NCBI RefSeq assembly: GCF_000744655.1
Contig: NZ_JQMJ01000003.1
Coordinates: forward strand, 1,054,001-1,118,000
Direction of reading: 5' to 3'
Length of the DNA stretch: 64,000 bases
Source: Streptacidiphilus rugosus AM-16
Lineage (GTDB): Bacteria; Actinomycetota; Actinomycetes; Streptomycetales; Streptomycetaceae
Both the position numbers and the translations under genes were made by a program. This document shows positions 10,791 through 25,574 of the stretch, piece by piece (position 1 is the first letter of the stretch; each line of letters opens with the position of its first letter). The notes under the pieces are model-generated. The model ran no database searches. It saw nothing but the letters and a program-made list of their open reading frames with translations, and was not told the origin of the DNA.

Positions 10791-11936
10791 ATGCAGCAGC
10801 ACCTCCTCGATCCGGAGCACCGCGACTTCGTCGCCGCGGTGCGCACGTTCATCGCCAGGGAGGTCGCTCCCCATCACGAGAGCTGGGAGCGGGCCGGACT
10901 CGTCGACCGCTCCGTCTGGGCCGCCGCGGGAAGGGCCGGGCTGCTCGGCTTCGACGTCGCCCCCGAGTTCGGCGGTGGCGGCACCGACGACATCCGCTAT
11001 CCCGTGCTGCTCGCCGAGGAGTTGATCAGAGCCGGGGCCACCGGGCTCGGCTTCGCGCTGCACAACGACGTCGTGGCGCCCTACCTCAACCGGCTGGCCA
11101 CCCCCGAGCAGCAGCACCGCTGGCTGCCCGGCTTCTGTTCCGGCGAGCTGGTCTCGGCGATCGCCATCACCGAGCCCGCCGCCGGCAGCGACCTGCAGGC
11201 GCTGACGACGAGCGCGGCGCCGGACGGCGACGCGTACGTGCTGACGGGGACCAAGACCTTCGTCACCAACGGCGTCCACGCCGACCTGGTGATCGTCGCG
11301 GCGCGCACCCACCCGGCCGACCGGCTGCGCGGCGGCCTCAGCCTGCTGGTGGTCGAGCGAGGGATGCCGGGATTCGAGCGGGGCCGCCCGCTGGAGAAGA
11401 TCGGGCGGCACGCCCAGGACACCGCCGAGCTCTTCTTCGACGAGGTCAGGGTGCCGGCGGCGAACCTGCTCGGGCGGCCGGGCCGGGGCGCGCAGCACCT
11501 GAACGAGCACCTCCAGCGAGAGCGGCTCAGCATCGCGGCCGCCGCGGTGGCCGGCGCGGAGACGGTCTTCGCCGAGACGCTGGAGTACTGCCGCACCCGC
11601 ACCGCCTTCGGTCAGCCGATCGGCAGCTTCCAGCACAACAGGTTCGAGCTCGCCGAGATGTCCACCGAGATCGAGATCGCCCGCGGCTATGTCGACCAGT
11701 GCCTGCTCGACCACAACGCGGGCCGCCGTGACGCCGTCACGGCGGCCCGCGCGAAGTGGTGGACGACCGACCTGCAGAAGCGCGTCGTCGACCGCTGCCT
11801 CCAACTGCACGGCGGCTACGGCTACATGCGCGAGCAGTCGGTGGCCAGGGCCTTCGTCGACACCCGGATGATGCCGATCTACGGCGGCACGAACGAGATC
11901 ATGAAGGAGCTGATCGGCCGCTCGCTCGGGGTGTGA
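10791..11936 (+). CDS. Acyl-CoA dehydrogenase family flavoprotein
   Basis: 381-residue FAD-dependent acyl-thioester dehydrogenase. The family features are in order: N-terminal helical domain; AITEPAAGSDLQAL (about 125-138, the flavin/substrate motif); beta-domain TGTKTFVTNG; RTAFGQPIGSFQ (about 267-279); and C-terminal GGYGYMREQ with YGGTNEIMKELIGRSLG. The Glu of YGGTNEI is the usual catalytic-base position. In natural-product clusters such proteins oxidise carrier-bound aminoacyl or acyl groups, for example prolyl-S-PCP. Here it faces the adenylation-carrier gene and probably acts on that or the ACP-bound intermediate. GAAGGG precedes ATG 10791. Substrate is inferred, not shown. Confidence 0.88.
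   Translation: MQQHLLDPEHRDFVAAVRTFIAREVAPHHESWERAGLVDRSVWAAAGRAGLLGFDVAPEFGGGGTDDIRYPVLLAEELIRAGATGLGFALHNDVVAPYLNRLATPEQQHRWLPGFCSGELVSAIAITEPAAGSDLQALTTSAAPDGDAYVLTGTKTFVTNGVHADLVIVAARTHPADRLRGGLSLLVVERGMPGFERGRPLEKIGRHAQDTAELFFDEVRVPAANLLGRPGRGAQHLNEHLQRERLSIAAAAVAGAETVFAETLEYCRTRTAFGQPIGSFQHNRFELAEMSTEIEIARGYVDQCLLDHNAGRRDAVTAARAKWWTTDLQKRVVDRCLQLHGGYGYMREQSVARAFVDTRMMPIYGGTNEIMKELIGRSLGV
11717..11751. repeat. Perfect 17-bp inverted repeat inside acyl-CoA dehydrogenase gene
   Basis: Arms CGCGGGCCGCCGTGACG (11717-11733) and its exact complement (11735-11751) are separated by one base within the coding sequence. The mRNA would form a very stable hairpin here. It may be a coincidence of alanine/arginine codons in high-GC DNA, an attenuator, or an insertion scar. 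Confidence 0.75.
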
Positions 11937-11943
11937 GGGACGC

Positions 11944-13791
11944 TCAGTTCCTCTTCCGCAGCGCGGCGATCGCGGCGGCCGCCTCGCCCACCGTGTCGTG
12001 GTCGAAGAAGACGTCCACCGGCACGTCCACGCCCCACACGGTGTGCATCCGCCCGACGATCTGCATCAGCGTGAGCGAGGAGGCCCCGAGATCGGCCAGG
12101 TCGTCGCCGGGGAGCACCTGCGGCACGTCCAGGACCTCGCGGCAGATCGCACAGACCTGCGCCAGCAGTCCGGTGGGCTCCCCGGACGGGTCCGCAGGGG
12201 CGTCGGCTTCGGCGGCGGTCGCGGGGCCGGTCGGCTCGGGCAGCGCACGGCGGTCGACCTTGCCGTGCGGGGTGAGCGGAAAGGCGTCCAGCGCCACCAG
12301 CAGGCCCGGCACCAGGGCGGCCGGAAGGCGGGTCCGGCCGAAGTCCCGCAGCGCGGCGGCGTCGGGCACGGCCGCGCCCGCCTCCGGCACCACGTAGGCG
12401 ACCAGCACCGACCCGCCGTTCGACCGCTCGTGCACGGCCGCAGCGACGCCGGCCACGCCCGGCATCGCGCTCAGGGCGGCCTCCACCTCGCCGAGTTCGA
12501 TCCGGCGGCCGTTGAGCTTCACCTGGTCGTCCGCGCGGCCGACGAACTCCAGCAGTCCGTCCGCGCGCCACCGGCAGCGGTCGCCGGTCCGGTACATCAG
12601 CGAGCCGTCCGGGCCGCCCGGCTCGGGCACGAAGCGCGCGGCGGTGAGCTCCGGGCGGTCGGCATAGCCGTCGGCCACCCCCGCTCCCGCGATGCAGAGT
12701 TCGCCGACCGCGCCGTCCTCGACCGGCTGCCCTTCGTCGTCCAGCAGGTGCAGCCGGGTGTTGGCGATCGGCGCGCCGATCGAGACGGCGGTGGCCCCGG
12801 GCGGCACCCGCCACAGCGTCGACAGCACCGTGGTCTCGGTCGGTCCGTAGCCGTTGAACAGGCCCGCGAGCCTGGCCCGCAGTTCTCCGGCCAGATTCAC
12901 CCCGAGGTTCTCGCCGCCGATCATGGCGACCATCCGTGGCGCGTCGAAGCCCGCGTCGAGCAGCAGCCGCCACTGCGAGGGCACCGCCTGCATCCGGGTC
13001 ACCTCCCGCTCCCGGATCAGCCGCACCAGGGCGCGCGGGTCGCGCAGTTGCTCCTCCGTGCTGAGCACCAGCTCAGCCCCGGAGGCGAGCGGTACGCAGA
13101 ACTCGGCCATCGAGATGTCGAACCCGGCGGCGGCCATCGCCAGCCAGCGGTCACCGGGGCCGCAGGGCATCTCCGCCGCCAGCTCCAGCACGACGTTGAG
13201 CAGCGCCCGGTGGCCGGTCAGGACGCCCTTGGGCAGGCCGGTCGAGCCGGAGGTGTAGATCAGGTACGCCGGATCGGCCGGGCCCGGATGGGCGTACTCC
13301 GACGCCGTCGCGGCGCCCGCGTCCGGGAGGTCCACGGCGTCGTCCCGGTCGATGGCGACCGCCGGAGGGGCGGACACCGGCAGCCGGGAGGTCAGGTCGG
13401 ACCGGGTGAGGGCGAGGTCCGCCGCGGAGTCGGCCAACAGGAAGGCGATGCGCTCGGCCGGATAGCCCAGATCGACGGGGAGGTGGACGCCGCCCGTCTT
13501 CCAGACGGCCAGCAGGCCGACGACGAGATCCGCGGAGCGGTCCAGGCAGACCGCGATCCGGCTGCCTGGACGGGCCCCCGCGGCCCGCAGCGAGCGCGCG
13601 GCCCGTTCGGCGGCTTCGTCCAACTCCCGGTAGCTGAACCGTCGTTCCGCCCAGCTCAGGGCCGGAGCGTCCGGGTGGGTGCGGGCTCCCGCCTCGAAGA
13701 GGCCGAGGACGGTCGTGGCCGGCCTCTCCCTGACCGGCCCGACTCGTGCGCGGTCGGCGAGTTGGTCCAGTGTCGCGGTGCTCTCCGGCAT
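11944..13791 (-). CDS. Stand-alone NRPS adenylation-carrier didomain
   Basis: 615-residue protein that activates an amino or carboxylic acid as the AMP ester and loads it onto its own phosphopantetheine arm. Adenylation core motifs are YLIYTSGSTGLPKGVL (A3, near 190), FDISMAEF (A4), NGYGPTETT (A5), ELCIAGAGVADGY (A6), YRTGDRCRW (A7), GRADDQVKLNGRRIELGEVE (A8) and a Lys in LTPHGKVDRRAL (A10). The carrier domain has LGASSLTLMQ around 570. My reading of the specificity code is D-I-A-Q-M-G-G-V-L-K, which I cannot match to a known substrate. ATG 13791 is set by GGGGAG 6 nt upstream. No condensation domain is attached; a separate one lies at 21335. Confidence 0.9.
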   Translation of the reverse strand: MPESTATLDQLADRARVGPVRERPATTVLGLFEAGARTHPDAPALSWAERRFSYRELDEAAERAARSLRAAGARPGSRIAVCLDRSADLVVGLLAVWKTGGVHLPVDLGYPAERIAFLLADSAADLALTRSDLTSRLPVSAPPAVAIDRDDAVDLPDAGAATASEYAHPGPADPAYLIYTSGSTGLPKGVLTGHRALLNVVLELAAEMPCGPGDRWLAMAAAGFDISMAEFCVPLASGAELVLSTEEQLRDPRALVRLIREREVTRMQAVPSQWRLLLDAGFDAPRMVAMIGGENLGVNLAGELRARLAGLFNGYGPTETTVLSTLWRVPPGATAVSIGAPIANTRLHLLDDEGQPVEDGAVGELCIAGAGVADGYADRPELTAARFVPEPGGPDGSLMYRTGDRCRWRADGLLEFVGRADDQVKLNGRRIELGEVEAALSAMPGVAGVAAAVHERSNGGSVLVAYVVPEAGAAVPDAAALRDFGRTRLPAALVPGLLVALDAFPLTPHGKVDRRALPEPTGPATAAEADAPADPSGEPTGLLAQVCAICREVLDVPQVLPGDDLADLGASSLTLMQIVGRMHTVWGVDVPVDVFFDHDTVGEAAAAIAALRKRN

Positions 13792-13838
13792 GACTGCTCC
13801 CCGGGCTCGGATGGGCTCGAACGGCCGGAGTCTAAGCG

Positions 13839-13854
13839 GAGGTCTAAACCAATC
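13839..13854. promoter_or_regulatory. TCTAAACC palindrome upstream of adenylation gene
   Basis: GAGGTCTAAACCAATC, read on the gene strand as TTGGTTTAGACCTC, lies about 50 bp upstream of the adenylation ATG. It is the same motif as those before the acyl-CoA dehydrogenase and LuxR genes. An adjacent GGAGTCTAAGCGG (13828-13840) may be a weaker second half-site. Confidence 0.55.
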
Positions 13855-13930
13855 GGGGGCGAACGGAACCGCGCCCCCGGCGCTCAGGACGCCTGTGACC
13901 AGCGGAAACAGCGGCCCGCTCCGGAGCCGT

Positions 13931-13968
13931 CGGTGGACACCTGGGGCCATGGCCCCAGGTGTCCACCG
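13931..13968. repeat. 38-bp perfect palindrome in divergent intergenic region
   Basis: Left arm CGGTGGACACCTGGGGCCA (13931-13949) is followed immediately by its exact complement (13950-13968), with no spacer. It sits between two diverging start codons, where a transcription terminator would be unexpected, so an operator, cruciform or site-specific recombination target is more plausible. Confidence 0.85.
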
Positions 13969-14176: not shown

Positions 14177-15106
14177 GTGACCGCCCTGACCGAGGTCGCC
14201 GACTACGTCCCCGACCAGAGCGTCGAGATCGCCGACCTCGCCGAGGAACTGGGCGTCTCGGCCGCCGACCTGCGGATCTTCCACCGCTACTTCGACCTCC
14301 ACCGGATCCGCCTCGCGCCCGACAAGGACCTGCGCGGCCTGATGGTCGCCGCCGCCGACGCCCTCACCGGCCTGCGCGGCAACGAGCACCGGGTGCGCTA
14401 CGTCCTCGCCGGAAGGACCATCGGTACGGTCGGCCGGGTCTCGAAGAACGCACTCCACGAGGCCTGCGACGAGCTCGGACTCGGCCACGCAGTCGCCCTG
14501 ACCGTCACCGAACACGCCTGCGCCTCCGGGCTGTTGGCGGTCGACCTGGCCGGCCGCCTGCTCGCCGCCGACGGTGACCCTGACGCGCTGGCGCTGGTGC
14601 TGACCGGGGAGAAGGCCACGATCCCCGGCAGCCGCATGATCCCCGGTACCACCGTGATGGGCGAGAGCAGCGCCGCCTGCCTGGTCCGCGCGGGCGGCGG
14701 TCCCGGCGAACTGCTCGGCTACGCCGCCCGCACGCACGGCGAGTACCACCGGGTGACACCGCCCAAGGAGCTCGCCGTCCGGTTCGGCCAGCAGTACCTG
14801 TCCATGCTGGTGGACGCGATGCGCGCGGCCGTCGCGGCGGCCGGGATCGACTTCGCCGACCTGGCGCTGATCCTGCCGCACAACGTCAACCGGTACTCCT
14901 GGAGCCGGGTCTGCCAGCAGCTCGGACTGCCGCTGGACCGGGTCCACCTCGACAACGTGCCCGAACTGGGCCACTGCTTCGGCGCGGACGCCTTCCTCAA
15001 CCTCGCGGACGCGCTGCGCCGCGGCCGTCTCGCGCCGGGGGACCACTACCTGATGGCCGGCGTCGGCCTGGGCGCCACCTTCTCCGCGATGGTGTTCCGG
15101 CACTGA
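14177..15106 (+). CDS. 3-oxoacyl-ACP synthase III family condensing enzyme
   Basis: 309-residue thiolase-fold enzyme resembling KAS III. The expected active-site cysteine is in TEHACASGLLAVDLA (about residue 117), the histidine in ILPHNVNRYSW (about 236), and GESSAACLV is the familiar turn. The third catalytic position, normally Asn in GNxxAAS, reads ELGHCFGADAFLN here, an unusual substitution. It would either condense an ACP-bound starter with a malonyl unit or act as an acyltransferase, as some KAS III relatives do. GTG 14177 has CGGAG 8 nt upstream. A second, cysteine-less relative is encoded at 18377. Confidence 0.82.
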   Translation: MTALTEVADYVPDQSVEIADLAEELGVSAADLRIFHRYFDLHRIRLAPDKDLRGLMVAAADALTGLRGNEHRVRYVLAGRTIGTVGRVSKNALHEACDELGLGHAVALTVTEHACASGLLAVDLAGRLLAADGDPDALALVLTGEKATIPGSRMIPGTTVMGESSAACLVRAGGGPGELLGYAARTHGEYHRVTPPKELAVRFGQQYLSMLVDAMRAAVAAAGIDFADLALILPHNVNRYSWSRVCQQLGLPLDRVHLDNVPELGHCFGADAFLNLADALRRGRLAPGDHYLMAGVGLGATFSAMVFRH

Positions 15107-15246: not shown

Positions 15247-16659
15247 TTGTCGCACGCAGCCTTTCCCGGATTTCTGGAGGGGGTGAAGCAGGCCTGTACC
15301 GGAGATCCCGGCACGCCCTTCGTCCACCTCGGGAACTTCGGAGTGGAGGACGAGTGGGCCAAGGGCGAGCCGGGCCTGCCGTCGGTCGGCAGCCCGGCCG
15401 GTGCGGCGGGCACCGCCGTCGTCCACCGGATGGACGAGTTCGCGCTGCTGCTCGCCGACCCGACCGACCATGTGGTGCTCAAGGCCGCGCCCGACCCCGA
15501 CCACCTGGACCATCTGAGGGGCCTGGGCATCGGACTGCCGACCGTTTTGGTCCCCGGGGCCGCGTCCGCCCCCGACCCGACCCGCCCGGCCGGCGCCGAC
15601 CTGCTCGACTCGCCGCCCCTGCTGCGACTCCTCGGCGAACTGGCCGCCACCGGAGCCAGGCTGCTGCCGCACGGCATGTCGGCGGTCGAGGAGCGGATCT
15701 GCGCGGCCGCCGCCCTGCCCTCCGCGCTCCCGTCGGCGGAGGTCGCCAAGGCCGTCAACAGCAAGATCTACAGCCGCCGGGTCGCCGACGAGCTGGGCAT
15801 CCGTCAGGTGCGCGGATGGGAGTGCGACACCGTCGGCGCCTTCGAGGCCGCCGCCCGCGCGGCCGCCGCCTCGCTCGCCGCCGGGTGCAGGATCGGCGTC
15901 AAGGACGCCTACGGCGTCTCCGGCCGCGGCATCGCAATGATCGACCGGGTGGAGCGGCTGGACCAGCTGCTCCGCAAGCTCGTCCGCCGCGCCGAACGGA
16001 CCGGCGACGACCGGCTGGCCCTGGTCGTGGAGGAGTGGGCGGACAAGGCCGTCGACCTCACCTGCCATTTCACCCTCGGGCAGGACGGCTCGGTGCGCTT
16101 CGACTTCGTCAAGGAGGCCCTGATCGAGAACGGCGTCAGCGTGGGCCACCGGATGCCGGCCCGATTGGCCCCGGCGCTGGTCGACCAGGTCGAGGAGTGC
16201 GTCGCCGCCCTGGGCAAGCGTCTGGCCGCCGACGGCTACCACGGTGTGGTCGGCGTCGACGCGATGGTCGAGCAGGACGGCCGGCTGCTGCCGGTGGTCG
16301 AGATCAACGCCCGCAACAACATGGCGACCTACCAGAGCCGCCTCCAGGAGCACCTGCTCGACGCCGGGTCCGTCGCCCTGGCCCGCCAGTACCCGCTACG
16401 GCTCCACGCACCGCTCCGCTTCGCCGAGTTGCGCGCCCTGCTGGACGGCCTGCTCTTCGACCCGGCCACGGCCACCGGTCTGCTGGTCACCAACTTCGCC
16501 ACCGTCAACGCCGCCGCGACGGCCGCCTCCGACCGGGCCTTCCCCGGCCGCCTCTACGGCCTGGCCGTCGCCCGCTCGCAGACCGGGGCCGACGCACTGG
16601 ACACCACCGTCGCCCGACGGCTCGCCGACGCCGGAATCGCCCAGAGGAGCCACGCATGA
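15247..16659 (+). CDS. ATP-grasp amino acid:ACP ligase, BtrJ-like
   Basis: 470-residue ATP-grasp protein. The N-terminal pre-grasp region (HLGNFGVEDEW near 28) is followed by the ATP-grasp fold. GVKDAYGVSGRGIAMIDRV (about 218-236) is the nucleotide loop, VVEEWADKAVDLTCHF the hinge region, and VVEINARNNMATYQ (about 350) the Mg-binding ExNxRxN motif. In butirosin biosynthesis, BtrJ ligates glutamate to the ACP BtrI before decarboxylation by BtrK. The adjacent decarboxylase and ACP here make the same job likely. Translation starts at TTG 15247, with GAGAGG 8 nt upstream. The 3' end overlaps the next gene by ATGA. Confidence 0.8.
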   Translation: MSHAAFPGFLEGVKQACTGDPGTPFVHLGNFGVEDEWAKGEPGLPSVGSPAGAAGTAVVHRMDEFALLLADPTDHVVLKAAPDPDHLDHLRGLGIGLPTVLVPGAASAPDPTRPAGADLLDSPPLLRLLGELAATGARLLPHGMSAVEERICAAAALPSALPSAEVAKAVNSKIYSRRVADELGIRQVRGWECDTVGAFEAAARAAAASLAAGCRIGVKDAYGVSGRGIAMIDRVERLDQLLRKLVRRAERTGDDRLALVVEEWADKAVDLTCHFTLGQDGSVRFDFVKEALIENGVSVGHRMPARLAPALVDQVEECVAALGKRLAADGYHGVVGVDAMVEQDGRLLPVVEINARNNMATYQSRLQEHLLDAGSVALARQYPLRLHAPLRFAELRALLDGLLFDPATATGLLVTNFATVNAAATAASDRAFPGRLYGLAVARSQTGADALDTTVARRLADAGIAQRSHA

Positions 16660-17963
16660 CCGAGGAACACGAAAGACGCGAAGGACATGAAGGACGCGAA
16701 GGTCATGCCGTCCAGGGAATCCCGGTCGAGACGCTCGCCCGCGAGTTCGGCACGCCGGTCTACGTCTACGACGCGGCAGTGATCTCCGAACAGTTCCACG
16801 CGCTGCGGGACCGCCTGCACCCGGCCGTCGAGATCTTCTACTCGCTCAAGGCCAACCCGAACGTCAGCGTCTGCGCCCTGCTGCACCGCCTGGGCGCCCG
16901 CGCCGAGATCTCCTCGCTCGTCGAGCTGGCCACCGTCATGACCGCGGGCGTTCCCGCCGACCAGACCCTCTTCCTCGGGCCGGGCAAGAGCGAGGCGGAG
17001 ATCGAGGCCTGCCTCAAGGTCGGCATCCTCGCGCTGATCTGCGAGTCGATAGAGGAACTGGCGCTGATCGACCGGACCGCCGGGCGCCTGGGCGTCACCG
17101 CGCGGGTCGTCCTGCGGGTCAATCCCAGCTTCTCGGTCAAGGGATCCGGCCTGACGATGGGCGGAAAGCCACGCCAGTTCGGCATCGACGAGGAGCTCCT
17201 GCTGTCCTCGACGAGCCTGGCCGCGGCCCACCCCTCGGTGCGGCTGACCGGCGTCCAGGCCTATCTGGGCACCCGGTTCCTCTCCGAGGAGACCATCGTC
17301 GCCAACACCGCGCGGATCCTCGAACTGGCGGAGCGTATCGCCGCCCACGTCGGCTTCGCGCTCGAACTCGTCGACGTCGGCGGCGGCCTGGGCGTCGCCT
17401 ACTTCGCGGGCGAGCGGGACCTGGACGTCGAGTTGCTCACCGACGGCGTCAACCCGCTCGCGGAGGACTTCTCCGCCCGGCACCCCGGCACCCGCCTGGT
17501 GATGGAACTGGGCCGGTACCTGGTGGCCCGCAGCGGCCTGTACGTGACGTCGGTCCGCTACGTGAAGGAGTCGATGGGGGAGCGGTTCGCGGTCGCGGAC
17601 GGCGGGACCAACCACCACCTGACGGCCGTCGGAATCGGCTCGCCGGTCAAGCGCAACTTCCCGATGCGACTGCTGAACCGGAAGGGCGCGGCGGAGTCCG
17701 CGCGCTGGAACGTCACCGGCCCGCTCTGCACCCCCAACGACACCATCGGCCGGGGCGTCGAACTGCCCGCCGATCTCCGGGCCGGCGACCTGCTGGGCGT
17801 GGACCGCTCCGGGGCCTACGGGCCGACGGCGTCACCGGTGTTCTTCCTCAGCCACGGCTACCCGGCCGAGGTGATGGTGCACCGGGGCAAGGCCCAGCTG
17901 ATCCGCCGCCGTGACGCGGTCGACGACCTGCTCGGTCCGCAGACGCTGATCCCGTTGCGCTGA
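16656..17963 (+). CDS. PLP-dependent decarboxylase (fold III), BtrK-like
   Basis: 435-residue alanine-racemase-fold decarboxylase of the diaminopimelate/ornithine decarboxylase group. FYSLKANPNVSVCALL (about residues 62-77) supplies the PLP-binding lysine, VDVGGGLGVAYF the phosphate-binding glycine loop, and GPLCTPNDTIG (about 355) the catalytic cysteine region. The stretch MGGKPRQFGIDEE and the segment around NHHLTAVGIGSPVKRNF recall BtrK, which decarboxylates glutamyl-S-ACP to 4-aminobutyryl-S-ACP. The first 17 residues are a charged repeat (EGHEGREGHA). ATG 16656 overlaps the ligase stop, with GAGGAG upstream, so the two are translationally coupled. Confidence 0.85.
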   Translation: MTEEHERREGHEGREGHAVQGIPVETLAREFGTPVYVYDAAVISEQFHALRDRLHPAVEIFYSLKANPNVSVCALLHRLGARAEISSLVELATVMTAGVPADQTLFLGPGKSEAEIEACLKVGILALICESIEELALIDRTAGRLGVTARVVLRVNPSFSVKGSGLTMGGKPRQFGIDEELLLSSTSLAAAHPSVRLTGVQAYLGTRFLSEETIVANTARILELAERIAAHVGFALELVDVGGGLGVAYFAGERDLDVELLTDGVNPLAEDFSARHPGTRLVMELGRYLVARSGLYVTSVRYVKESMGERFAVADGGTNHHLTAVGIGSPVKRNFPMRLLNRKGAAESARWNVTGPLCTPNDTIGRGVELPADLRAGDLLGVDRSGAYGPTASPVFFLSHGYPAEVMVHRGKAQLIRRRDAVDDLLGPQTLIPLR

Positions 17964-18092: not shown

Positions 18093-18362
18093 ATGCCCGC
18101 CTCACTCCCCACCGAAGCCCGCCGCGAGGACGTGGTCCGCGCCGTCGTCGCCGCGCTCGCCGACGCGCTGGGCCACGAACTGCCGGACGTCACCGAGGCC
18201 ACCCGCCTCTTCGACGACCTCAACGTGGACTCCACCAGCGTGCTCGGCCTGCTGATGAGCCTGGAGGACAGCCTCGACATCGAGGTCGACACCGACATCC
18301 TGGAGCAGCACCACCTGGAGAGCGTCGCCGCGCTCACGGACTTCCTGCTCGAGAACCTGTAG
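18093..18362 (+). CDS. Acyl carrier protein, BtrI-like
   Basis: 89-residue four-helix carrier protein with the phosphopantetheine serine in LNVDSTSVLGLLMSLEDSL (serine about residue 47). The motif DSTSVL and the acidic second helix resemble BtrI of butirosin more than a fatty-acid ACP (DSLD). It should be the platform for the ligase and decarboxylase upstream and is activated by the PPTase at 20580. Start ATG 18093 has CCGGAG 6 nt upstream. The preceding 129-bp gap contains the CCCT tract. Confidence 0.88.
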   Translation: MPASLPTEARREDVVRAVVAALADALGHELPDVTEATRLFDDLNVDSTSVLGLLMSLEDSLDIEVDTDILEQHHLESVAALTDFLLENL

Positions 18363-18376
18363 CGGGGCGCGACGTC

Positions 18377-19177
18377 GTGGCTACCGCCGACTCTCCACTG
18401 ACCGACGTCCGGTTGGAGCAGGTGCTGCTCCTGCCGCTCGACACCCTGCCCGGCCATGCGCCGGACTCCCCGCTGATGCGGGAGTACGCCGACCGGCTCA
18501 CCTGGTTCTACCCGCCTGCCGACGCCGACGCCGAGCGTCACTGGCTCCGGCGCGGCCGTGGGGTGACCTTCGCCGAGACGGTCGAACTCGCCGCCCGGCT
18601 GCTGGGACCGGCCGAGCCGGTGGACCTGGCCGTCACCGTCACCGCGACCCCGGACAGCGGCGAGGCCGGCTACCCAGGCTGCCTGCTCAGACCGCTGCTG
18701 CCGGGCGCGCCGGCGGTGCTGGGGATCACCGGGCAGGGCGCGGCCGGGCCCTTCACCGCGCTGCGGATCGCCGCCGAGCGGATCGCCTCGGGCGAGGCCC
18801 GGCGGGCCGTGGTGCTCGTGATGGAGCAGTGCCGGCTCCCCGACGAGGACGGCCTGGTGCTCCCGGCCCGTGACCGCGCGGTGCTGCTGGTGCTGGGAGC
18901 GGAGGGAAGCCACGCCCTCGGCGCGTCGCTCGTGTCCCGCACCCCGCCCGCCGACGCCGCCACGATCACCGGTCCCGCGCCCGGTGAGGGAATCACCGGG
19001 CCGTGGGCGGACCTCGCCGAGCGGTGGGCGGGCCTCGCCGGGGCGTCCGTCGCCGTCACCGCCCACGATGCCGCGTTGTCCTACTGGTGCCGGCTCGAAC
19101 TCGACGCGGTGCCGGACGCGTTCGACTCGTCCGGACTGGAGCTCGCGCTCTGGGCCGAGGACGGGGTCGGCGCGTGA
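18377..19177 (+). CDS. KAS-like protein lacking the catalytic cysteine
   Basis: 266-residue protein with a degenerate thiolase/KAS III core. GITGQGAAGPFTALRIAAER (about 115-134) aligns with the nucleophile elbow of KAS III (normally ACAG...), but glutamine-glycine replace the cysteine. VVLVMEQCRLP matches the following strand. The C-terminal half lacks recognisable His and Asn motifs. This suggests a non-catalytic partner of the KAS III at 14177, comparable in concept to a chain-length factor. GTG 18377 is the assumed start (weak site GGGGCG), 15 nt after the ACP stop. Its last bases overlap the MATE start (GTGA). Confidence 0.65.
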   Translation: MATADSPLTDVRLEQVLLLPLDTLPGHAPDSPLMREYADRLTWFYPPADADAERHWLRRGRGVTFAETVELAARLLGPAEPVDLAVTVTATPDSGEAGYPGCLLRPLLPGAPAVLGITGQGAAGPFTALRIAAERIASGEARRAVVLVMEQCRLPDEDGLVLPARDRAVLLVLGAEGSHALGASLVSRTPPADAATITGPAPGEGITGPWADLAERWAGLAGASVAVTAHDAALSYWCRLELDAVPDAFDSSGLELALWAEDGVGA

Positions 19178-20583
19178 CGCTGAGCACCCCGGACACCGCC
19201 GAGCCGGCCCGGCTGACCCCGCCGCCGGTCCCGATCCGCGCGGAGATCGTCTCCGTCGCGGTCCCGGTGGCCGTCGGCGCGGTGGTGTGGGTCGGCGGCC
19301 AGTTCGTCGTGGGTGCGCTGCTCGGGCACCTGCCGGGCGACGCGCTCTACGTCCGGGGTCTGCTCATCCCGGTCGGCTTCCTCTTCGTGGCCCTCCAGGA
19401 GGCCTTGGAGGTGGTCACCCAGATCGGCACGGCCCGCTGCCGGGGCCGCGGCGAACTCGCGGCCCTGCGCGGCCTGTTCGGCCGGCTCTGCCTGGCCGGC
19501 TGGGCCGCCTTCGCGGTCGTCGCCGTGGCGGTGGCGCTCGCCGCGCCGACGCTCGCCGCGCTGATGCACGTGCCGGCCGGAGCGGCAGGCGACTTCGTCG
19601 CGGTGCTGCGCTGGACGGCGCTGGTCAACGTGTTCGGTGTGCCGGTGAACGTCGCGACGGCCATGCTGCGCGGCGGCGGCCGGCCGAGGGGCGCGGCGGC
19701 GCTCACGTTCACGGTGACCGTGCTGCAGATCGCGGGGGTGTGGCTGCTCGGACTCCGCGGCGGTCTCGGCGTGTTCAGCCTGCCGTGGTCCGCCGCGGCG
19801 TCGGGCGCCTGCGGGCTGGCGCTCGGAGTCGGCCTGCTGCTCCGCTCCGGCGCGCTGCGCCGCGCGCCCGCCGAACCACCGCCTCCGGCCGTCGCCGTGG
19901 CCGTCGAGGCCGAGCGGGGCGGGCCGCCGGTCGCCGTCCGCTCGCTGCTGGTCGGCATCGGACTCCCGATCGCCGCCACCTACGTCATGCTCAGCCTCAG
20001 CAACCTCGTCACCGAGTGGATCCTCACGCCCTTCGGCACCGCGACCGTGGCCGGCTACGGCGCGGCGATCTCGGTCCAGTCCGTCGCGGTGGTCCCCGCC
20101 CTGGCGCTCGGCACCGCGACCGCCGTGACCGCCAACCGGCGCTGGGCCGGCGGCGAGGTCACGGCCCTTCCTGCCGCCCTGCGGACGGGCCTGCGGATCG
20201 CCGTCGCCGGTTACCTGTTCATCGCGCTGCTCTGCCTGCCCGCGGCCGGGACCCTCGCCCGGCTGATGACCTCGGACCCGGAGACGGCGGCCCGGGCCGC
20301 GACCTTCCTGCGGATCGTCGGCCCGTCGTTCCTCGGCCTGGGCGTGGTGCTCTTCCTGCTCACCTTCCTGGAGCAGATCGGCGGCGGACTGCTCGCCGCC
20401 TCCTCGAACCTCTGCTACTTCACCCTCACCCTGGCCGTGGGCGGGTCGCTGGCCCGCGCGTGGGGCGATCCGCAGGCCCTCTACGGTGTCTGGGCGGCGG
20501 CCAACGTGCTCGGCGTGGCGGGTGTGCTGCCGCTGACCCTGCACCGGGTCCGCCGGGTCACCGCCCGCGCGGAGTCGCCATGA
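19174..20583 (+). CDS. MATE-family efflux transporter
   Basis: 469-residue membrane protein with about 12 helices in two homologous halves, as in MATE/MOP flippases (VGAVVWVGGQFVVGALLG near 25; GYGAAISVQSVAVVPALALGTA near 285; GVVLFLLTFLEQIGGGLLA near 390). In the middle of an assembly-line operon it most likely exports the product or its precursor. It is coupled by 4-bp overlaps to both the KAS-like gene before it and the PPTase after it, so all three are one transcript. Confidence 0.82.
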   Translation: MTLSTPDTAEPARLTPPPVPIRAEIVSVAVPVAVGAVVWVGGQFVVGALLGHLPGDALYVRGLLIPVGFLFVALQEALEVVTQIGTARCRGRGELAALRGLFGRLCLAGWAAFAVVAVAVALAAPTLAALMHVPAGAAGDFVAVLRWTALVNVFGVPVNVATAMLRGGGRPRGAAALTFTVTVLQIAGVWLLGLRGGLGVFSLPWSAAASGACGLALGVGLLLRSGALRRAPAEPPPPAVAVAVEAERGGPPVAVRSLLVGIGLPIAATYVMLSLSNLVTEWILTPFGTATVAGYGAAISVQSVAVVPALALGTATAVTANRRWAGGEVTALPAALRTGLRIAVAGYLFIALLCLPAAGTLARLMTSDPETAARAATFLRIVGPSFLGLGVVLFLLTFLEQIGGGLLAASSNLCYFTLTLAVGGSLARAWGDPQALYGVWAAANVLGVAGVLPLTLHRVRRVTARAESP

Positions 20584-21338
20584 CGGCCGTCGGCCACGTC
20601 GACGTCTGGTACCTGCGGCTCGACGTGCACCCCGACCGGGAACGGACCCTCGCCGCGCTGCTCGACGCCCGCGAACTGCGCCGCGCGACACGGCTGCGGG
20701 CGCCGGACGAGCGCCGTCGGCTCGTCGCCGCGCACGGGCTGACCCGGCTGCTGCTCGCCCGCCGCACCGGAACCGACCCCCGGACGCTGAGCTGGTCCCT
20801 CGGCGTCCACGGCAAGCCCGGGCCGGTCGGCGACCCGGACCGGCCGGTGCACTGGAACCTCAGCCACACCGGGGACCGCGCCCTGCTCGCCGTCTCGGGG
20901 GAGGGCCCGGTCGGCGTCGACATCCAGTCGGTGCCGCCGGACACCCCGGTTCTCGCGCTGGCCCGGCGCTTCCTACCGCCGTCGGAGTACGCGTGTCTCG
21001 CCGCCCTCGGCCGGGACGCCGACCGCCGCACCGGCTACTACCGGGCGTTGTGCCGCCGCGAGGCCGGGGTCAAGGCGCACGGCGGACGGCTGCTCGACGC
21101 GCTCGGACCCGCCCGGCCCCCGGACGGCGGCGTCTGCGGCGTCGGCGGTTCGCTGCGGGACCTGCCCGCGCCGGCCGGCTGCGTCGCCGCCCTGGCCACG
21201 GTCGCCGGCCCCGCCCGGGTCCGCCACCGCATGCGGCCTCCCACGTCCGGCCCGCCGTCCTTCGCCCCGCCGCCGTCCGCCCCACAGCCGTTCGCCCCGC
21301 CGTCCTTCGTCCCCACCGCTTCGAAGGGAACCGCATGA
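20580..21338 (+). CDS. Sfp-type 4'-phosphopantetheinyl transferase
   Basis: 252-residue PPTase that converts apo-carrier proteins (the ACP at 18093 and the carrier domain at 11944) to holo form. Core motifs are WNLSHTGDRALLAVS, VGVDIQS (metal aspartate) and RALCRREAGVKAHG, a variant of WxxKEA in which Arg replaces Lys. The last 35 residues are proline/serine-rich (repeats of APP) and look like low-complexity extension. It overlaps the MATE stop and the condensation-domain start by 4 bp each. Having a dedicated PPTase supports the view that this is a self-contained assembly line. Confidence 0.85.
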   Translation: MTAVGHVDVWYLRLDVHPDRERTLAALLDARELRRATRLRAPDERRRLVAAHGLTRLLLARRTGTDPRTLSWSLGVHGKPGPVGDPDRPVHWNLSHTGDRALLAVSGEGPVGVDIQSVPPDTPVLALARRFLPPSEYACLAALGRDADRRTGYYRALCRREAGVKAHGGRLLDALGPARPPDGGVCGVGGSLRDLPAPAGCVAALATVAGPARVRHRMRPPTSGPPSFAPPPSAPQPFAPPSFVPTASKGTA

Positions 21339-22729
21339 CCACCGACCAGTTGCTGAAGGTGCACGTCTCCGCCGCACGCAGCGGCACGGCCCAGGCCACC
21401 TGGGGACAGCAGGCGATCTGGGACGCCGTGTCCGGGCTCGGCGCGGACGCGCCGCGCTACAACCTGATGCTTCCGGTCGAGCTCGATCCCGGCCGGCCGC
21501 TGCCCGAGGTGCTGGACGACCTGACGGCGCTGTTGCATCTCCACGAATCGCTGCGCACCAGACTGCGGCCGGACGAGTCCGGCGGCCTGCGTCAGATCCT
21601 CGACGGCGAGGGCGACCTGCCGGTCGCCCTCTGGAACTGCCCGCCCGAGGAGGCGGACCGGCAGCGCGACGCGCTCCTCGCCGACCTGCTCGGCCGCCCC
21701 TTCGACACCGCGCGCCAATGGCCGGTACGGGCGGGCCTGGTGGAGTGCGACGGCCTCGTCCGGCACCTGGTGCTCGTGCTCTCGCACACGGCGTCCGACG
21801 GATGGGGCATCCGACGGCTGCACCAGGACGTGATCGACCTCGGGCGCGGGCTGACCGTCGCGCGGATCCGCGCCCGGCGCCCCTCCCTGCAGCCGCTCGA
21901 CGAGGCGGCACTGCAGGCCTCCGACCGCGGGCGCCGCCGCGACGTGGCCGCCCGACGCCACTGGTGCGAGCGCCTCGAAGGCGGAGCGGCCCGTCTCTTC
22001 ACCTCCTCCGGCGCCGAGCCCGACGACCCGGCGCGGCTGCTCCCCAACGCCAGGCTGCACTCGCCCGCCCTGGCCCATGCCGTCGAACAGGTCGCCGCGG
22101 GGCGCGGGGTCAGTACCTCCTCCGTGCTGCTGGCGGCCCTCGCCGTCCAGCAGTCCAGGCTCTCCGGGGCCGAGGCGGCGCTGCTTCAGGTCGTCGTCAA
22201 CAACCGGTTCCTGCCCACGACCGCGCAGGCGGTCAGCACGATGGCGCAGGAGGGCCTCTTCCACCTGCCGTCCGCGCGCGGCCGCTTCACCGAGGTGCTG
22301 CGCCGCGCCCACCTGGCCGCCCTCGGCTGCTACCGCCACGCCGCCTACGACAGACGCCTGCTGACCCGCGACCTCGCCGAACTCGGCCGGGTGGCCGGAC
22401 CGCTCGCCGACCGCTCCTGCACCTTCAACGACGCCCGCATCGTCCGCGCCGACGCCGCGCCGACGACGGATCCGCCGCCCCTGGACCGGCCGCCCCGGGA
22501 CCGGCTGGACCGGCTGCGCGAACAGACGCGGCTCAGCTGGCCCGTCGAGTTCCCGCCCCGCGCCGACTTCACCTTCGCCCTCGACGCCGTGCTGACGCCC
22601 GGCGCGCTGGAACTGGCGATGACCGCCGACAGCGCCCTGATCTCCCGCGCCGGCATGGAACGGCTGCTGTACGGCGTCGAGGAACTGATCGTCGACGAGG
22701 CCGTCTCGTTGGGCCGCGACCGTGACTGA
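21335..22729 (+). CDS. Stand-alone condensation-domain protein
   Basis: 464-residue protein with the chloramphenicol-acetyltransferase-like fold of NRPS condensation domains. The catalytic motif is LSHTASDGWGIRRLH (about 149-163): HHxxxDG with the first His changed to Ser but the second, catalytic, His kept. The N-terminal GQQAIWDAV corresponds to C1, and LQVVVNNRF and LFHLPS to later core motifs. It probably forms an amide or ester between carrier-bound partners. GAAGGG precedes ATG 21335; 4-bp overlap upstream, 8-bp overlap with the deacetylase gene. Confidence 0.82.
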   Translation: MTTDQLLKVHVSAARSGTAQATWGQQAIWDAVSGLGADAPRYNLMLPVELDPGRPLPEVLDDLTALLHLHESLRTRLRPDESGGLRQILDGEGDLPVALWNCPPEEADRQRDALLADLLGRPFDTARQWPVRAGLVECDGLVRHLVLVLSHTASDGWGIRRLHQDVIDLGRGLTVARIRARRPSLQPLDEAALQASDRGRRRDVAARRHWCERLEGGAARLFTSSGAEPDDPARLLPNARLHSPALAHAVEQVAAGRGVSTSSVLLAALAVQQSRLSGAEAALLQVVVNNRFLPTTAQAVSTMAQEGLFHLPSARGRFTEVLRRAHLAALGCYRHAAYDRRLLTRDLAELGRVAGPLADRSCTFNDARIVRADAAPTTDPPPLDRPPRDRLDRLREQTRLSWPVEFPPRADFTFALDAVLTPGALELAMTADSALISRAGMERLLYGVEELIVDEAVSLGRDRD

Positions 22730-23900
22730 CTCCGCGCAGCCCACCCCGCTCTGCGCGGGCGTCGCCTGGAGCGGCGGCTCCCTCGGCCAGGAGGCCGCCG
22801 GCTACGAGGCCGAGGTGCTCGACGCCGCAGGCCGGCGGGTCGCCGGACCGACCCGCTGGACCGCGGACCGGGTCGCCGAGTTGATCGCCTGGCTGCGGGA
22901 GACCGCCGAGCGCGCCGGTCGGCCCCTGGTCGTGGTCGTCGACAGCACCAACGGGCTGCTGGACGGCCCGATGACCGCCGCCGGACTGGACGTCCGCCGC
23001 GCCGACCCGTGGACCCTGCCGCCCCGCCCGCCCTTCGGCTCCGTTCCCCCGCACGCCCTCGCCGGGCTGGCCCGGACCGCGCTCTCCTCCCTCTCCCGGC
23101 TCACCCCCGAGGGCGGGACGCTGACCGGCCGTGGCGAGGAGTACCTGGAGGGCGTCCGCCGCAGCGCCCCGGTCCGGGCGGCGCTGACGGCGGCGGGCCG
23201 CTGCGTCGAGCACGGCCGCCGGGACCGCCCGCAGGTCGCGCTCACCTTCGACGACGGCCCCGACCCGGTGCTCACCCGCCGGATCCTGGACGTCCTGGCC
23301 CGCTACGACGCCCGGGCCACCTTCTTCTGCGTCGGCCACCACGTCGCGGCCCTTCCCGACGAGGTGCGCCGGACCGCCGCGGCCGGACACGAACTGGGCA
23401 ACCACTCCTGGTCGCACCCGTTCCTGCCCGACCTGACGCCGACCCAGCTCTCCGCCCAGGTCGAGCGGACCTCGGAGGCCATCGAACGGCTCACCGGCCG
23501 GGCGCCGACCCGCTTCCGACCGCCCTACGGCTCGCAGACGCCGGAAGTGCTGCGGGTTCTGGCCACGCACCCGACCACGCTCACCTTCTGGGACGTGGAC
23601 TCCCGCGACTGGGCCAGGCCCGGCCCCGACCGGATCGCCGCCACGGTCCTTGACGCCGCCGGTCCCGGCTCGGTGGTCCTCATGCACGAGGGCGGCGGCG
23701 ACCGCCGGCAGACCGTGCAGGCACTGCCCGCGGTGATCGAGGGACTGCTGGCCCGCGGACTGGAACCCGTCACCCTGGAGGAACTCCTCCGCCCGGCGGC
23801 CCCGCCCGCGGCTGTGCCTCCGCATGCCGCTGTGCCGCCGCCCACTGCTCCGGTGGCGCTCAGCCGTCGACCGGCAGCCAGCCCCGCTGGACCGCTTTGA
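22722..23900 (+). CDS. NodB-type polysaccharide deacetylase with extra N-terminal domain
   Basis: 392-residue protein. The C-terminal half (about 165-370) is a carbohydrate-esterase-4/NodB domain: VALTFDDGPDPVLTRR with the catalytic and metal aspartates, HSWSHP (HxxxH zinc ligands), FRPPYG (motif 3) and VVLMHEG (motif 5). All catalytic motifs are intact. The first 155 residues (AWSGGSLGQEAAGYEAEVLD, VVVVDSTNGLLDG) form a separate domain I cannot place. No signal peptide, so it is likely cytosolic, unlike wall-chitin deacetylases. In this operon it could remove an N-acyl protecting group or deacetylate an amino sugar. GTG 22722 overlaps the condensation gene. Confidence 0.82.
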   Translation: MTDSAQPTPLCAGVAWSGGSLGQEAAGYEAEVLDAAGRRVAGPTRWTADRVAELIAWLRETAERAGRPLVVVVDSTNGLLDGPMTAAGLDVRRADPWTLPPRPPFGSVPPHALAGLARTALSSLSRLTPEGGTLTGRGEEYLEGVRRSAPVRAALTAAGRCVEHGRRDRPQVALTFDDGPDPVLTRRILDVLARYDARATFFCVGHHVAALPDEVRRTAAAGHELGNHSWSHPFLPDLTPTQLSAQVERTSEAIERLTGRAPTRFRPPYGSQTPEVLRVLATHPTTLTFWDVDSRDWARPGPDRIAATVLDAAGPGSVVLMHEGGGDRRQTVQALPAVIEGLLARGLEPVTLEELLRPAAPPAAVPPHAAVPPPTAPVALSRRPAASPAGPL

Positions 23901-24891
23901 CCCCCGCCTCGAACCGGCTTCCGGCGTCCAGCCGTTCGAGCAGTGCCGCGGTGATCCGCCGAGCGGTTCGGGGCGAGACCCCGAGCCGCTTCGCGATGCC
24001 GCCCAGGGTCAGCCCGGTGGCCATCAGCCGCAGCGTGGCGATCTCCTGCGTCGACAGCTCGCGCTGCCTGGCGGCCGTCCTTTCCTCCGCCGTCGGCGCG
24101 TCCAGTGCCTGTCCCTCGGCCCAGACGGACTCGAACAGCGCGCGCAGCGCCACGACGATGCCCGCATCGGCGCCGGCTCCGGTGACGACCAGCGCTCCGC
24201 GCCGGCTGTCCTGGATGTCCATGGGGAGGAAGGCGATCCGGCGGTCGACGATCAGCATCCGCGTCGGCAACGTCGCCACCGTCCTGACCTGTGCGCCCTG
24301 TTCCACCAGCCGACGGGCGTGGGCGAGCGTGGGCTGATGGCTCCGGATGCTGGTGAGGTACACCGTGCGCAGCCGCACGCCCCGCGCCAGCAGCGCCGCG
24401 TTGAGCGGGCCGGAGGCCTGCATGTTCTCGTTCGTCTGGGCGCCGTCGGGAGCGAAGGCCAGCAGCTCCTCCTCGACGTCCCGGCTCAGCGCCGCCAGCC
24501 GGTCCCTGATCCGGTCGATCCCGACCAGCACCTCGACGCCCACGTCCGTATCGGGCGACTCCAGCCCACCGGCCTCCGCGACGAGCTGCGCCGCGGCGGC
24601 CCGTGACACCGCCAGCCGGTGCAGTCGCCCCTGCAGCGCGGCCTCCTGCCGTGCCAGCAGCAGCTCCATTCCCGCCTCGGCCCGCACGGGCAGCCGTCCG
24701 CCCGCCGCTTCGTAGGAGGGCCGCACCAGCGCAAGCCGGTTCAGCCGTCCCAGCGCGTAGGCGATCTGGCCCTCCGTCATCGATAAGCGGACGGCCAGCT
24801 CGGCGGTCCCCTCCTCGGGCTGGGCCAGCATCGCGCGATAGACCGCCTCGGTCAGCGCGTCGAGGCCCAGCGGTTCCAGCAGGTTCGCCAC
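23860..24891 (-). CDS. LuxR-type regulator with TrmB-like N-terminus
   Basis: 343-residue cluster-type regulator. A TrmB-like winged helix is at residues 1-70 (LLEPLGLDALTEAVYRAML, LSMTEGQIAYALGRL). A central PLD-like sensor domain follows (about 100-255). The C-terminal LuxR/GerE helix-turn-helix reads TQEIATLRLMATGLTLGGIA and VSPRTARRITAALLER. GTG 24891 is the only in-frame start that keeps the conserved N-terminus, though no clear Shine-Dalgarno precedes it. It converges on the deacetylase gene (41-bp overlap) and diverges from the NodA-like gene; the 125-bp gap holds a TCTAGA palindrome. It is the likely pathway-specific regulator. Confidence 0.82.
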   Translation of the reverse strand: MANLLEPLGLDALTEAVYRAMLAQPEEGTAELAVRLSMTEGQIAYALGRLNRLALVRPSYEAAGGRLPVRAEAGMELLLARQEAALQGRLHRLAVSRAAAAQLVAEAGGLESPDTDVGVEVLVGIDRIRDRLAALSRDVEEELLAFAPDGAQTNENMQASGPLNAALLARGVRLRTVYLTSIRSHQPTLAHARRLVEQGAQVRTVATLPTRMLIVDRRIAFLPMDIQDSRRGALVVTGAGADAGIVVALRALFESVWAEGQALDAPTAEERTAARQRELSTQEIATLRLMATGLTLGGIAKRLGVSPRTARRITAALLERLDAGSRFEAGVKAVQRGWLPVDG

Positions 24892-24921: not shown

Positions 24922-24936
24922 AGGTCTAGACCAACC
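24922..24936. promoter_or_regulatory. TCTAGA palindrome between LuxR and NodA-like genes
   Basis: AGGTCTAGACCAACC, read on the LuxR strand as TTGGTCTAGACCT then TTCTTGAACC, 32 bp upstream of the LuxR start. The same strand reading before the acyl-CoA dehydrogenase is TTGTCTAGACCTCTTGAGCC, so similarity extends past the palindrome. Candidate site for DasR or for LuxR autoregulation. Confidence 0.6.
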
Positions 24937-25016
24937 CTCCCGAGCGGTCCGCCGCGCCGGAGCGGTGGGCCGTAAATCGGCGGCGGCGTGCCTCTCGGCG
25001 CTGGTAGAACGTCCGG

Positions 25017-25574
25017 GTGGATCACCTGACCTGGGCAGTGAGCTGGGAGAACGACCTCCCGCCCGAAGGGCACGACGCACTCGCCGGCCTCCTCGCGCGC
25101 GCCTACCCGCGGCACGTCGAGCTGTTCCGCGACGGGTGCACCTGGTCGGGGGCCCGCCCCGAACTGCGCGTCGTCGGCAGCGCGGGGGACCGACCGGTCG
25201 CCCACCTCGGCCTGGTGCGCCGCTTCCTGCGGGTGCAGCAGACCGGTGCGAGCCTGCTGGTCGGCGACGTCGGCCTGGTCGCCGTCGACCCGGACCTTCA
25301 GGGCCGGGGCGTCGGCCGCGCCCTCCTCGACCACACGCTGCGCACCATGACCGAACTGGCGCTCCCCTTCGGCTTCCTGACCTGTCGCCCCGAGGTCGTG
25401 CCGTTCTACCGCAGCGGCGGCTGGCAGCGCCTCGACGGCCAGATCACCCGCATGATCGACAACGACCACCGCCCCGAGGTCTACGACGGCCCGGCGATGG
25501 CCCTGCCGGTCCGCGCCCCGATGACCGACTGGCCCCACGGCCTCACCGTCGACCGCAACGGCCTCGAAGTCTGA
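25017..25574 (+). CDS. NodA-like N-acyltransferase (GNAT fold)
   Basis: 185-residue protein that reads along its whole length like rhizobial NodA, which transfers an acyl chain from ACP to the free amine of a chitooligosaccharide. Matches to remembered NodA features: SWENDL near the N-terminus, TWSGARPELRVVG, VAHLGLVRRFLRV, VGLVAVDPDLQGRGVG (acyl-donor loop) and the C-terminal TDWPHGLTVDRNGLEV. GTG 25017 follows a TAGAAC -10 box by 7 nt (leaderless). It shares its upstream region with the LuxR gene and lies next to a NodB-type deacetylase, so a NodB-then-NodA deacetylation/N-acylation step is plausible. The acceptor need not be chitin. Confidence 0.8.
   Translation: MDHLTWAVSWENDLPPEGHDALAGLLARAYPRHVELFRDGCTWSGARPELRVVGSAGDRPVAHLGLVRRFLRVQQTGASLLVGDVGLVAVDPDLQGRGVGRALLDHTLRTMTELALPFGFLTCRPEVVPFYRSGGWQRLDGQITRMIDNDHRPEVYDGPAMALPVRAPMTDWPHGLTVDRNGLEV

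Follow-up and report, generated by a model that had tools for sequence, protein, structure and literature searches.

A conserved gene block of Streptacidiphilus rugosus with an ATP-grasp ligase, a BtrK-like decarboxylase and a free carrier protein: a candidate N-acyl-beta-alanyl starter cassette

Introduction

Acyl-dehydro-beta-alanine is a rare unit. Besides its own compounds, the bolagladin paper of 2020 mentions, in its accessible text, no carriers of it other than the enamidonins (PMC7756342), and AFC-BC11 was added later (PMC12186527). The present analysis deals with a block of 12 genes on a 64,000-nucleotide stretch of the Streptacidiphilus rugosus AM-16 genome (contig NZ_JQMJ01000003.1, positions 1,054,001 to 1,118,000), hereafter called the window. 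The block encodes an ATP-grasp ligase, a decarboxylase, a free acyl carrier protein (ACP) and two proteins related to beta-ketoacyl-ACP synthases (KAS). In our judgement, chances are evenly balanced that it is an aspartate-derived N-acyl-beta-alanyl-ACP starter cassette, the product of which is probably desaturated by an enzyme of the long-chain acyl-CoA dehydrogenase (LCAD) type and feeds a one-residue unit made of an adenylation-peptidyl carrier protein (A-PCP) and a condensation (C) domain.

The closest described systems are considered here as far as the accessible parts of the respective papers go. The bolagladin cluster (bol, Burkholderia gladioli) shares with the block a BtrK-like decarboxylase (BolN), a free ACP (BolC), KAS III homologues (BolM and BolP) and an acyl-CoA dehydrogenase (ACAD; BolQ). 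BolN is proposed to act on carrier-bound aspartate, from which dehydro-beta-alanine (Dba) is proposed to derive (PMC7756342). It differs from the block in that the loader is a VinN-type adenylation enzyme instead of an ATP-grasp ligase, the product is a depsipeptide made by a nonribosomal peptide synthetase (NRPS), and the KAS III cysteine is replaced by Ser in BolM and Thr in BolP (PMC7756342). In the biosynthesis of AFC-BC11 (afc, Burkholderia cepacia complex), aspartate is also carried on a carrier protein, where AfcP was shown in vitro to decarboxylate it, AfcL makes a peptide bond and the BolQ-like AfcE is expected to desaturate (PMC12186527). Unlike the afc system, the block uses an ATP-grasp ligase, a C domain and an A-PCP and has no acyl-AMP ligase of the AfcA kind. 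Deletions of BolN and BolQ, together with assays of AfcP and AfcL, support this starter logic (PMC7756342, PMC12186527).

In Streptomyces, enamidonin, autucedine and olenamidonin also involve an acyl-dehydro-beta-alanine unit on an ACP, and the 3-oxoacyl-ACP synthases AutS and OleH are proposed to ligate acyl groups (PMC11204786). The aut cluster is compared here through the second-hand description in that source. In other genomes, the core genes of the block sit with gene families for 2,3-diaminopropionate (Dpr) and with NRPS genes, in one case (G083) with a matching order, which recalls enamidonin and autucedine. Unlike these clusters, the window block has neither Dpr genes nor a multimodular NRPS; it combines a single A-PCP and a free C domain with a deacetylase-like protein, and its ACAD is of another kind. 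Solanimycin was considered as a further relative and set aside, since the accessible part of its paper argues for dehydro-alpha-alanine.

The butirosin proteins BtrI, BtrJ and BtrK offer the same association of a BtrK-type decarboxylase, a free ACP and an ATP-grasp ligase, the sequence comparison being made with BtrK and that with BtrJ and BtrI by description. The pathway of the 4-amino-2-hydroxybutyrate (AHBA) side chain of butirosin further includes a monooxygenase, acyl transfer to the aminoglycoside and removal of a gamma-glutamyl group. Pfam scans of the 12 block proteins revealed no monooxygenase, no aminoglycoside acyltransferase and no gamma-glutamyl cyclotransferase. Moreover, butirosin biosynthesis acts on glutamate, whereas the substrate of the window cassette would probably be aspartate.

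Of the features of a Dba pathway, the block contains a BtrK/VinO-type decarboxylase, a free-standing ACP and, by sequence and fold, KAS III-like transferases in the form of one Cys/His/His/Asp member and one Cys-less relative. The VinN-type aspartate-loading enzyme of bol and afc is absent: an ATP-grasp ligase stands in its place, the A-PCP being encoded apart from it on the minus strand. As a candidate for the desaturating, BolQ-like ACAD, the block holds an LCAD-type enzyme without E365, and not the ACAD pair found in most relatives (see below). Because the VinN-type loader is replaced, the block is said to work like bol and afc rather than to belong to them.

Conservation and core enzymes of the block

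The genome of S. rugosus (9.0 Mb, 4 contigs) was compared over the window with a 60 kb stretch of Streptacidiphilus jiangxiensis. Matches (E 1e-10) were obtained for 12 of the 60 window genes, which form a contiguous run bounded by the ACAD gene (10791) and the LuxR gene (24891), their order being identical in both species, whereas the remaining 48 called genes have no match in the compared 60 kb. As all 12 matches are contiguous and collinear, the conservation of the block is not due to chance. Protein identity ranges from 48% (phosphopantetheinyl transferase) to 86% (ACAD).

Among solved structures, BtrK (2j66) is the closest relative of the decarboxylase with 286 bits, diaminopimelate decarboxylase coming second with 158 (sequence taken from 16779), and the lysine and glycine-rich motifs are kept in 104-106 of 106 relatives. 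By sequence, the enzyme is a member of the BtrK-like family. The ATP-grasp ligase gave weak matches only when searched against solved structures as a single sequence. Its AlphaFold2 model (predicted local distance difference test, pLDDT, 94.6) is nearest to 8ynd, 3wvq (PGM1) and 8yi6 (BesA), and the same grouping was obtained by profile. No description of this ligase in an enamide pathway was found in the open-licence literature searched.

The KAS III family (n=111) has Cys115 in 110 members, with one gap, and His235, His266 and Asp271 in all 111. Alignment to FabH shows that His266 replaces the FabH Asn in every member. According to the accessible part of the AFC-BC11 paper, AfcL and AfcO each have a Cys/His/Asp triad, and AfcL was shown to pass a beta-alanyl chain to an amine (PMC12186527). 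Asp271 and the Asp of AfcL, compared by description and not by alignment, may be seen as a parallel, not as proof. Since the FabH Asn is replaced and amide formation has been proposed for KAS III-like relatives in the bolagladin pathway and demonstrated for AfcL, we infer that the KAS III would form an amide rather than a carbon-carbon bond.

The second KAS has no Pfam match. Its family profile matches FabH (4ryb, E=4.8e-8) and ChlB3 (E=1.1e-5) weakly, and its AlphaFold2 model (pLDDT 87.1), built from position 18359 and hence six codons too long, finds its best match in ChlB3 (7eqi, E 4e-8, template modelling scores 0.56/0.47, root mean square deviation 10.7), which is a partial likeness. Ala occupies the place of the KAS III Cys; a Cys is found there in 8 of 97 family members and anywhere in the 8-residue elbow in 12 of 97. 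Judging from sequence and model, this protein is most likely a degenerate KAS III and possibly a non-catalytic partner subunit of the KAS III. The original prediction, made from the DNA sequence alone, had noticed both a cysteine-less KAS and a BtrK-type decarboxylase next to a free ACP and an ATP-grasp ligase. The former is real, with Ala replacing the Cys, and the family of the latter was rightly called, BtrK being by far its best solved relative.

Distribution of the core

The core, constituted of KAS III, ATP-grasp ligase, decarboxylase, ACP and Cys-less KAS, usually followed by a small ACAD-like protein and an ACAD, recurs across actinobacteria. Of 200 genomes sampled from the family, 37, among them that of S. 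rugosus, encode an ATP-grasp relative; the match is strong in 36 and only distant in the remaining one (G184). A scan of named genomes confirmed 162 loci, the best 80 of which were analysed. Across 118 sources, that is, 117 loci, some cut by contig ends, plus the window, the decarboxylase family is present in 106, KAS III in 104, ACP in 103 and the Cys-less KAS in 97. These sources include the same contig from two collections; six such copies were removed by hand before the count of 85 judgeable sources, which includes the window, others may remain, and the active-site counts were made with the copies in. Gene calls in relatives come from a GC-frame caller, and the families come from a broad blastp clustering, in which the ACAD family mixed the window ACAD with the core ACAD until active sites were compared. 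A protein with a median length of 214 aa resembling part of an ACAD lies at most three genes after the Cys-less KAS in 77 of the 85 judgeable sources, and both this protein and an ACAD do so in 75.

In Streptomyces decoyicus (L153, NZ_CP108348.1), the core is carried by a 235 kb linear plasmid beside an NRPS and an MMPL transporter, and the gene at the ATP-grasp position is annotated merely as a hypothetical protein. Another protein family, with a median length of 588 aa, was found in 14 sources (e.g. L120:19456-21186); a scan of one member gave no hit in Pfam or NCBIfam.

Genomic contexts pointing to aspartate

NRPS domains were read in 12 sources from motifs and not from models. In G083, the core lies beside an NRPS with the order C-A-T-E-C-A-T-C-A-T-C-A-T-TE (A, adenylation; T, thiolation; E, epimerization; TE, thioesterase), the adenylation pockets of which read DVWEMTADD, DVWEVTADD, DILQLGVIW, which we take to be a glycine code, and DAWLTGIAV, left unassigned. 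The same locus carries gene families 10 and 12, the Dpr gene families, whose members from other loci pass the NCBI cut-offs for SbnA (371 vs 350) and SbnB (432 vs 327). Olenamidonins are composed of D-Dpr, L-Dpr, Gly and L-Phe in addition to acyl-dehydro-beta-alanine (PMC11204786). Apart from the unassigned last pocket, the predicted order fits this composition, and the G083 NRPS reads like those of enamidonin and autucedine.

A second context is provided by MutE-like and MutS-like genes located just upstream of the core at seven loci of Streptomyces, Micromonospora and Allorhizocola, six with both and L064 with the MutS-like gene alone. Because their scores lie well under the NCBI equivalog cut-offs (134 vs 390 and 38 vs 110), 'methylaspartate mutase' is to be taken as a family-level label. 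Genes for a flavin mononucleotide (FMN) enzyme and an AsnA/aminoacyl-tRNA synthetase-like protein accompany them upstream of the core at these loci (L061, L062, L063, L064, L066, L068 and L069), L064 having part of these labels. In a tree of ATP-grasp ligases made with a quick method, the window joins the clade of the MutE/MutS loci and three other loci with 87% SH-aLRT support, this fork being drawn open. Methylaspartate was rejected as the substrate in the window, as no MutE match was found in its genome by a search whose control matched, below cut-off, in 1 of 14 genomes. Taken together, the Dpr-NRPS context, the MutE/MutS-like context and the action on carrier-bound aspartate proposed for BolN and shown for AfcP favour aspartate over 4-aminobutyrate (GABA).

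Acyl-CoA dehydrogenases and desaturation

The window ACAD is closest in the PDB to 2pg0 (406 bits) and to the LCAD 8w0t (365 bits). Of positions Glu244 and Glu365, presumably the alternative catalytic bases of ACADs, E244 is present and E365 is absent in this enzyme; position 365 is Glu in 89 of 97 family members. At E 1e-150, the enzyme is found in 3 of 14 Streptacidiphilus genomes, its own included, at 100%, 86% and 65% identity. The idea of a housekeeping neighbour was abandoned on this distribution, since the two matches at 86-100% both come from genomes that carry the cluster. A paralogue with 57% identity is encoded elsewhere in the S. rugosus genome. The ACAD gene stands tail to tail with the A-PCP gene and matches the prolyl-PCP dehydrogenase model with 224.5 bits (cut-off 650). 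Oxidation of a prolyl-PCP by this pair was rejected, the A-PCP pocket letters (DIAQMGGVLK, identical in S. jiangxiensis) bearing no evident resemblance to a proline code. A common sub-family of the window A-PCP and the remaining A-PCPs in the dataset was likewise rejected, as it differs from them in its pocket letters and HDFG-type motif.

A natural fusion links the decarboxylase with desaturation. On plasmid NZ_CP015232.1 of Tritonibacter mobilis (L154:5950-8388), an 812-aa protein has a decarboxylase part (48% identity to that of the window) ahead of a core-type ACAD, the latter being 31-37% identical to the four core members tried. Profiles were run on 12 of the 14 annotated genes of this stretch and detected two KAS III-like proteins (213 and 147 bits), a relative of the Cys-less KAS (96.8 bits) and a small protein resembling an ACAD (42.4 bits); none of the 12 matched the ATP-grasp ligase, and one is an adenylation enzyme. 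The core is thus present, in one form, in an alphaproteobacterium as well, and because of this fusion, beta-amino acyl chemistry with desaturation is favoured. For Rahnella, the comparison covered 7 of the 17 annotated genes, among which are a decarboxylase, a relative of the Cys-less KAS (54.7 bits) and a KAS III but no match to the ACAD profile, which suggests that desaturation is a separable step. The E-values of these profile comparisons refer to 19 proteins only. Furthermore, at two loci with Dpr and NRPS gene families (L088 and L114), the three genes that follow the Cys-less KAS include neither a small ACAD-like protein nor a called member of the ACAD family, so a saturated beta-alanine version may exist.

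Proposed route and alternative readings

In the proposed starter cassette, the ATP-grasp ligase would load the side-chain carboxyl of L-aspartate onto the free ACP, and the BtrK-like enzyme, whose family is established and whose substrate is putative, would strip the alpha-carboxyl to give beta-alanyl-ACP. An amide would then be formed by the KAS III, perhaps assisted by the Cys-less KAS as a partner without catalytic activity, when the free amine receives an acyl group carried by CoA or ACP. As an N-acyl-beta-alanyl thioester resembles a long-chain acyl thioester, the LCAD-type dehydrogenase is the candidate for oxidizing the alpha,beta bond to the enamide, N-acyl-dehydro-beta-alanyl-ACP, which is the least certain step. 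Finally, the free C domain may couple this unit to one amino acid held by the A-PCP, and the multidrug and toxic compound extrusion (MATE) transporter may export the product. A fuller picture, in which the block would be a minimal enamide-lipo-amino-acid assembly line with an ATP-grasp aspartate loader, a heteromer of KAS III and Cys-less KAS, a recruited LCAD-type enzyme, a one-residue A-PCP/C unit and a deacetylase-family finisher or releaser, is more tentative and in our view somewhat doubtful.

Several observations weigh against this route. Aspartate is a putative substrate, and BtrK itself works on glutamate. The full Dpr-Dpr-Gly pattern occurs in one of the 12 sources read, and while at least one DxWExTADD pocket is present in 9 of the 12 (two of them being one contig; none in G071, G043 and L106), its meaning as a Dpr pocket is inferred. 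The window genome having no MutE match, the MutE/MutS clade bears on the window only indirectly. The fatty acyl group of AFC-BC11 is added by the acyl-AMP ligase AfcA, AfcL making a later bond (PMC12186527), and the autucedine proposal, known second-hand, acylates the already desaturated DHA-ACP (PMC11204786). Either route could operate here. Apart from the A-PCP, the block holds no acyl-AMP ligase. The way in which AFC-BC11 is acylated and the single complete NRPS reading count against individual steps. In both S. rugosus and S. jiangxiensis, the pair of small ACAD-like protein and ACAD is missing after the Cys-less KAS, and the LCAD-type enzyme lies at the other end of the block; a search of the whole window genome at E 0.001, run without a positive control, found no small ACAD-like protein. 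Desaturation would consequently depend on an ACAD of another subfamily, possibly acting on the acyl chain or on the amino acid bound to the A-PCP. Pfam scans of the 12 block proteins also revealed no thioesterase.

The missing pair leads to the most serious alternative, namely a cassette without desaturation, in which the unit stays a saturated N-acyl-beta-alanyl group and the substrate of the LCAD-type enzyme is either the fatty chain or the amino acid held by the A-PCP. The Rahnella relatives without an ACAD match, the tail-to-tail arrangement of ACAD and A-PCP and the prolyl-PCP dehydrogenase score speak in its favour, whereas the ACAD is retained in both Streptacidiphilus blocks as their most conserved member and the A-domain pocket does not appear to be of the proline type; we consider this reading unlikely, though to be taken seriously. 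The butirosin-like route of the original prediction, in which glutamate loaded on the ACP would be decarboxylated to yield 4-aminobutyryl-ACP, appears rather improbable. Indeed, although BtrK is the closest solved decarboxylase and BesA, a relative of the ligase by profile and fold, is recorded as L-propargylglycine--L-glutamate ligase, BolN (by proposal) and AfcP (in vitro) act on aspartyl thioesters (PMC7756342, PMC12186527), and beta-amino acyl chemistry agrees with the fused ACAD as well as with the two gene contexts (Dpr-NRPS and MutE/S-like). The same prediction had the KAS III extend the chain. Elongation of the aminoacyl-ACP with malonyl-ACP, giving a keto-amine that may cyclise, would agree with the KAS III fold and its kept Cys and His, but the invariant replacement of the FabH Asn by His, the invariant Asp, the lack of Pfam matches to a ketoreductase, dehydratase or malonyl transferase in all 12 proteins of the block and the amide formed by the KAS III-like AfcL (PMC12186527) make it very improbable.

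The starter logic is of a kind already described for bolagladin, AFC-BC11 and, second-hand, autucedine, so that the original statement that no described pathway has this gene set stands for the exact 12 genes, which were not found together in the open-licence literature, and falls for the logic. In the material searchable, the ligase and the decarboxylase did not turn out to belong to unrelated families, and no characterised cluster with the same gene order appeared. The combination of ATP-grasp loader, LCAD-type ACAD, one-residue A-PCP/C unit and deacetylase-like protein was not found in the open-licence literature searched either. It would nevertheless be unsafe to present the ATP-grasp core as described here for the first time.

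Gene content and surroundings

Families were assigned by Pfam and NCBIfam scans of 20 window proteins (Table 1). All genes named in the original prediction are present with the families given, the deacetylase-family protein and the LuxR regulator having been omitted from it. Overlaps of 4-8 bp, claimed for most junctions, hold at 5 of 8 from the KAS III to the deacetylase-like gene when the Cys-less KAS is taken to begin at 18377. The ATG of the decarboxylase overlaps the ATP-grasp gene by 4 bp, whereas the Cys-less KAS cannot start at 18359 (GTA) and has its first possible start 14 bp past the ACP. The deacetylase-like protein has intact TFDDGPD, HSWSHP and RPPYG motifs; about 165 N-terminal residues are unmatched, and PDB deacetylases align from about residue 155-173 on.

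Table 1. Genes of the conserved block, with positions in the window
Feature	Position	Strand	Support
Acyl-CoA dehydrogenase, LCAD type	10791..11936	+	Pfam ACAD domains
A-PCP (adenylation domain + carrier protein)	11944..13950, start maybe 13791	-	AMP-binding 298 bits, PP-binding 47.5 bits
KAS III-like enzyme, Cys115/His235/His266/Asp271	14177..15106	+	PF08541
ATP-grasp ligase (pre-ATP-grasp + ATP-grasp)	15247 (TTG) or 15283 (GTG)..16659	+	PF18604, PF02222
BtrK-like fold-III pyridoxal phosphate decarboxylase	16656..17963	+	BtrK 2j66 286 bits; ATG start 16656
Free acyl carrier protein, DSTS serine	18093..18362	+	PF00550 30.8 bits
Cys-less KAS, most likely degenerate KAS III	18377..19177	+	Family profile and AlphaFold2 model; no Pfam match
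MATE exporter	19174..20583	+	PF01554 84 bits
Phosphopantetheinyl transferase	20580..21338	+	PF01648 33.6 bits; HetI model 82.5 bits, under cut-off of 370
Free-standing condensation domain	21335..22729	+	PF00668 57 bits; motif SHTASDG, second His kept
Polysaccharide-deacetylase-family hydrolase	22722..23900	+	PF01522 130.6 bits
LuxR-type regulator	23860..24891	-	PF00196 27.1 bits; 68% identity in S. jiangxiensis

The range of the original prediction ended with a NodA-like GNAT acyltransferase gene (25017-25574, plus strand; PF02474 151 bits, NCBIfam NodA models under cut-off), which adjoins the block without being conserved with it and thus falls outside. Nod-factor-like chemistry combining NodB-like and NodA-like proteins was rejected on this ground and because no glycosyltransferase occurs among the 20 scanned proteins. 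Elsewhere in the window, a single-frame MFS transporter carries a C-terminal cupin domain (5852-7639, plus strand), and an Lrp/AsnC-type regulator has two helix-turn-helix regions and a ligand-binding domain (8534-9514, plus strand).

Significance

The Cys-less KAS raises the question of partner subunits of KAS III enzymes in amide formation, and the natural fusion of decarboxylase and dehydrogenase makes the order of steps testable. Loading, N-acylation and desaturation are suggested to be separable steps. Sub-families of the core with other partners are indicated, namely methylaspartate-mutase-like genes, beta-ketoacyl synthases or a one-residue A-PCP/C unit, and the sub-family with MutE/MutS-like genes may predict an alpha-methyl version of the unit. 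More generally, the ATP-grasp core offers a sequence signature by which actinobacterial cassettes possibly making acyl-dehydro-beta-alanine can be recognized.

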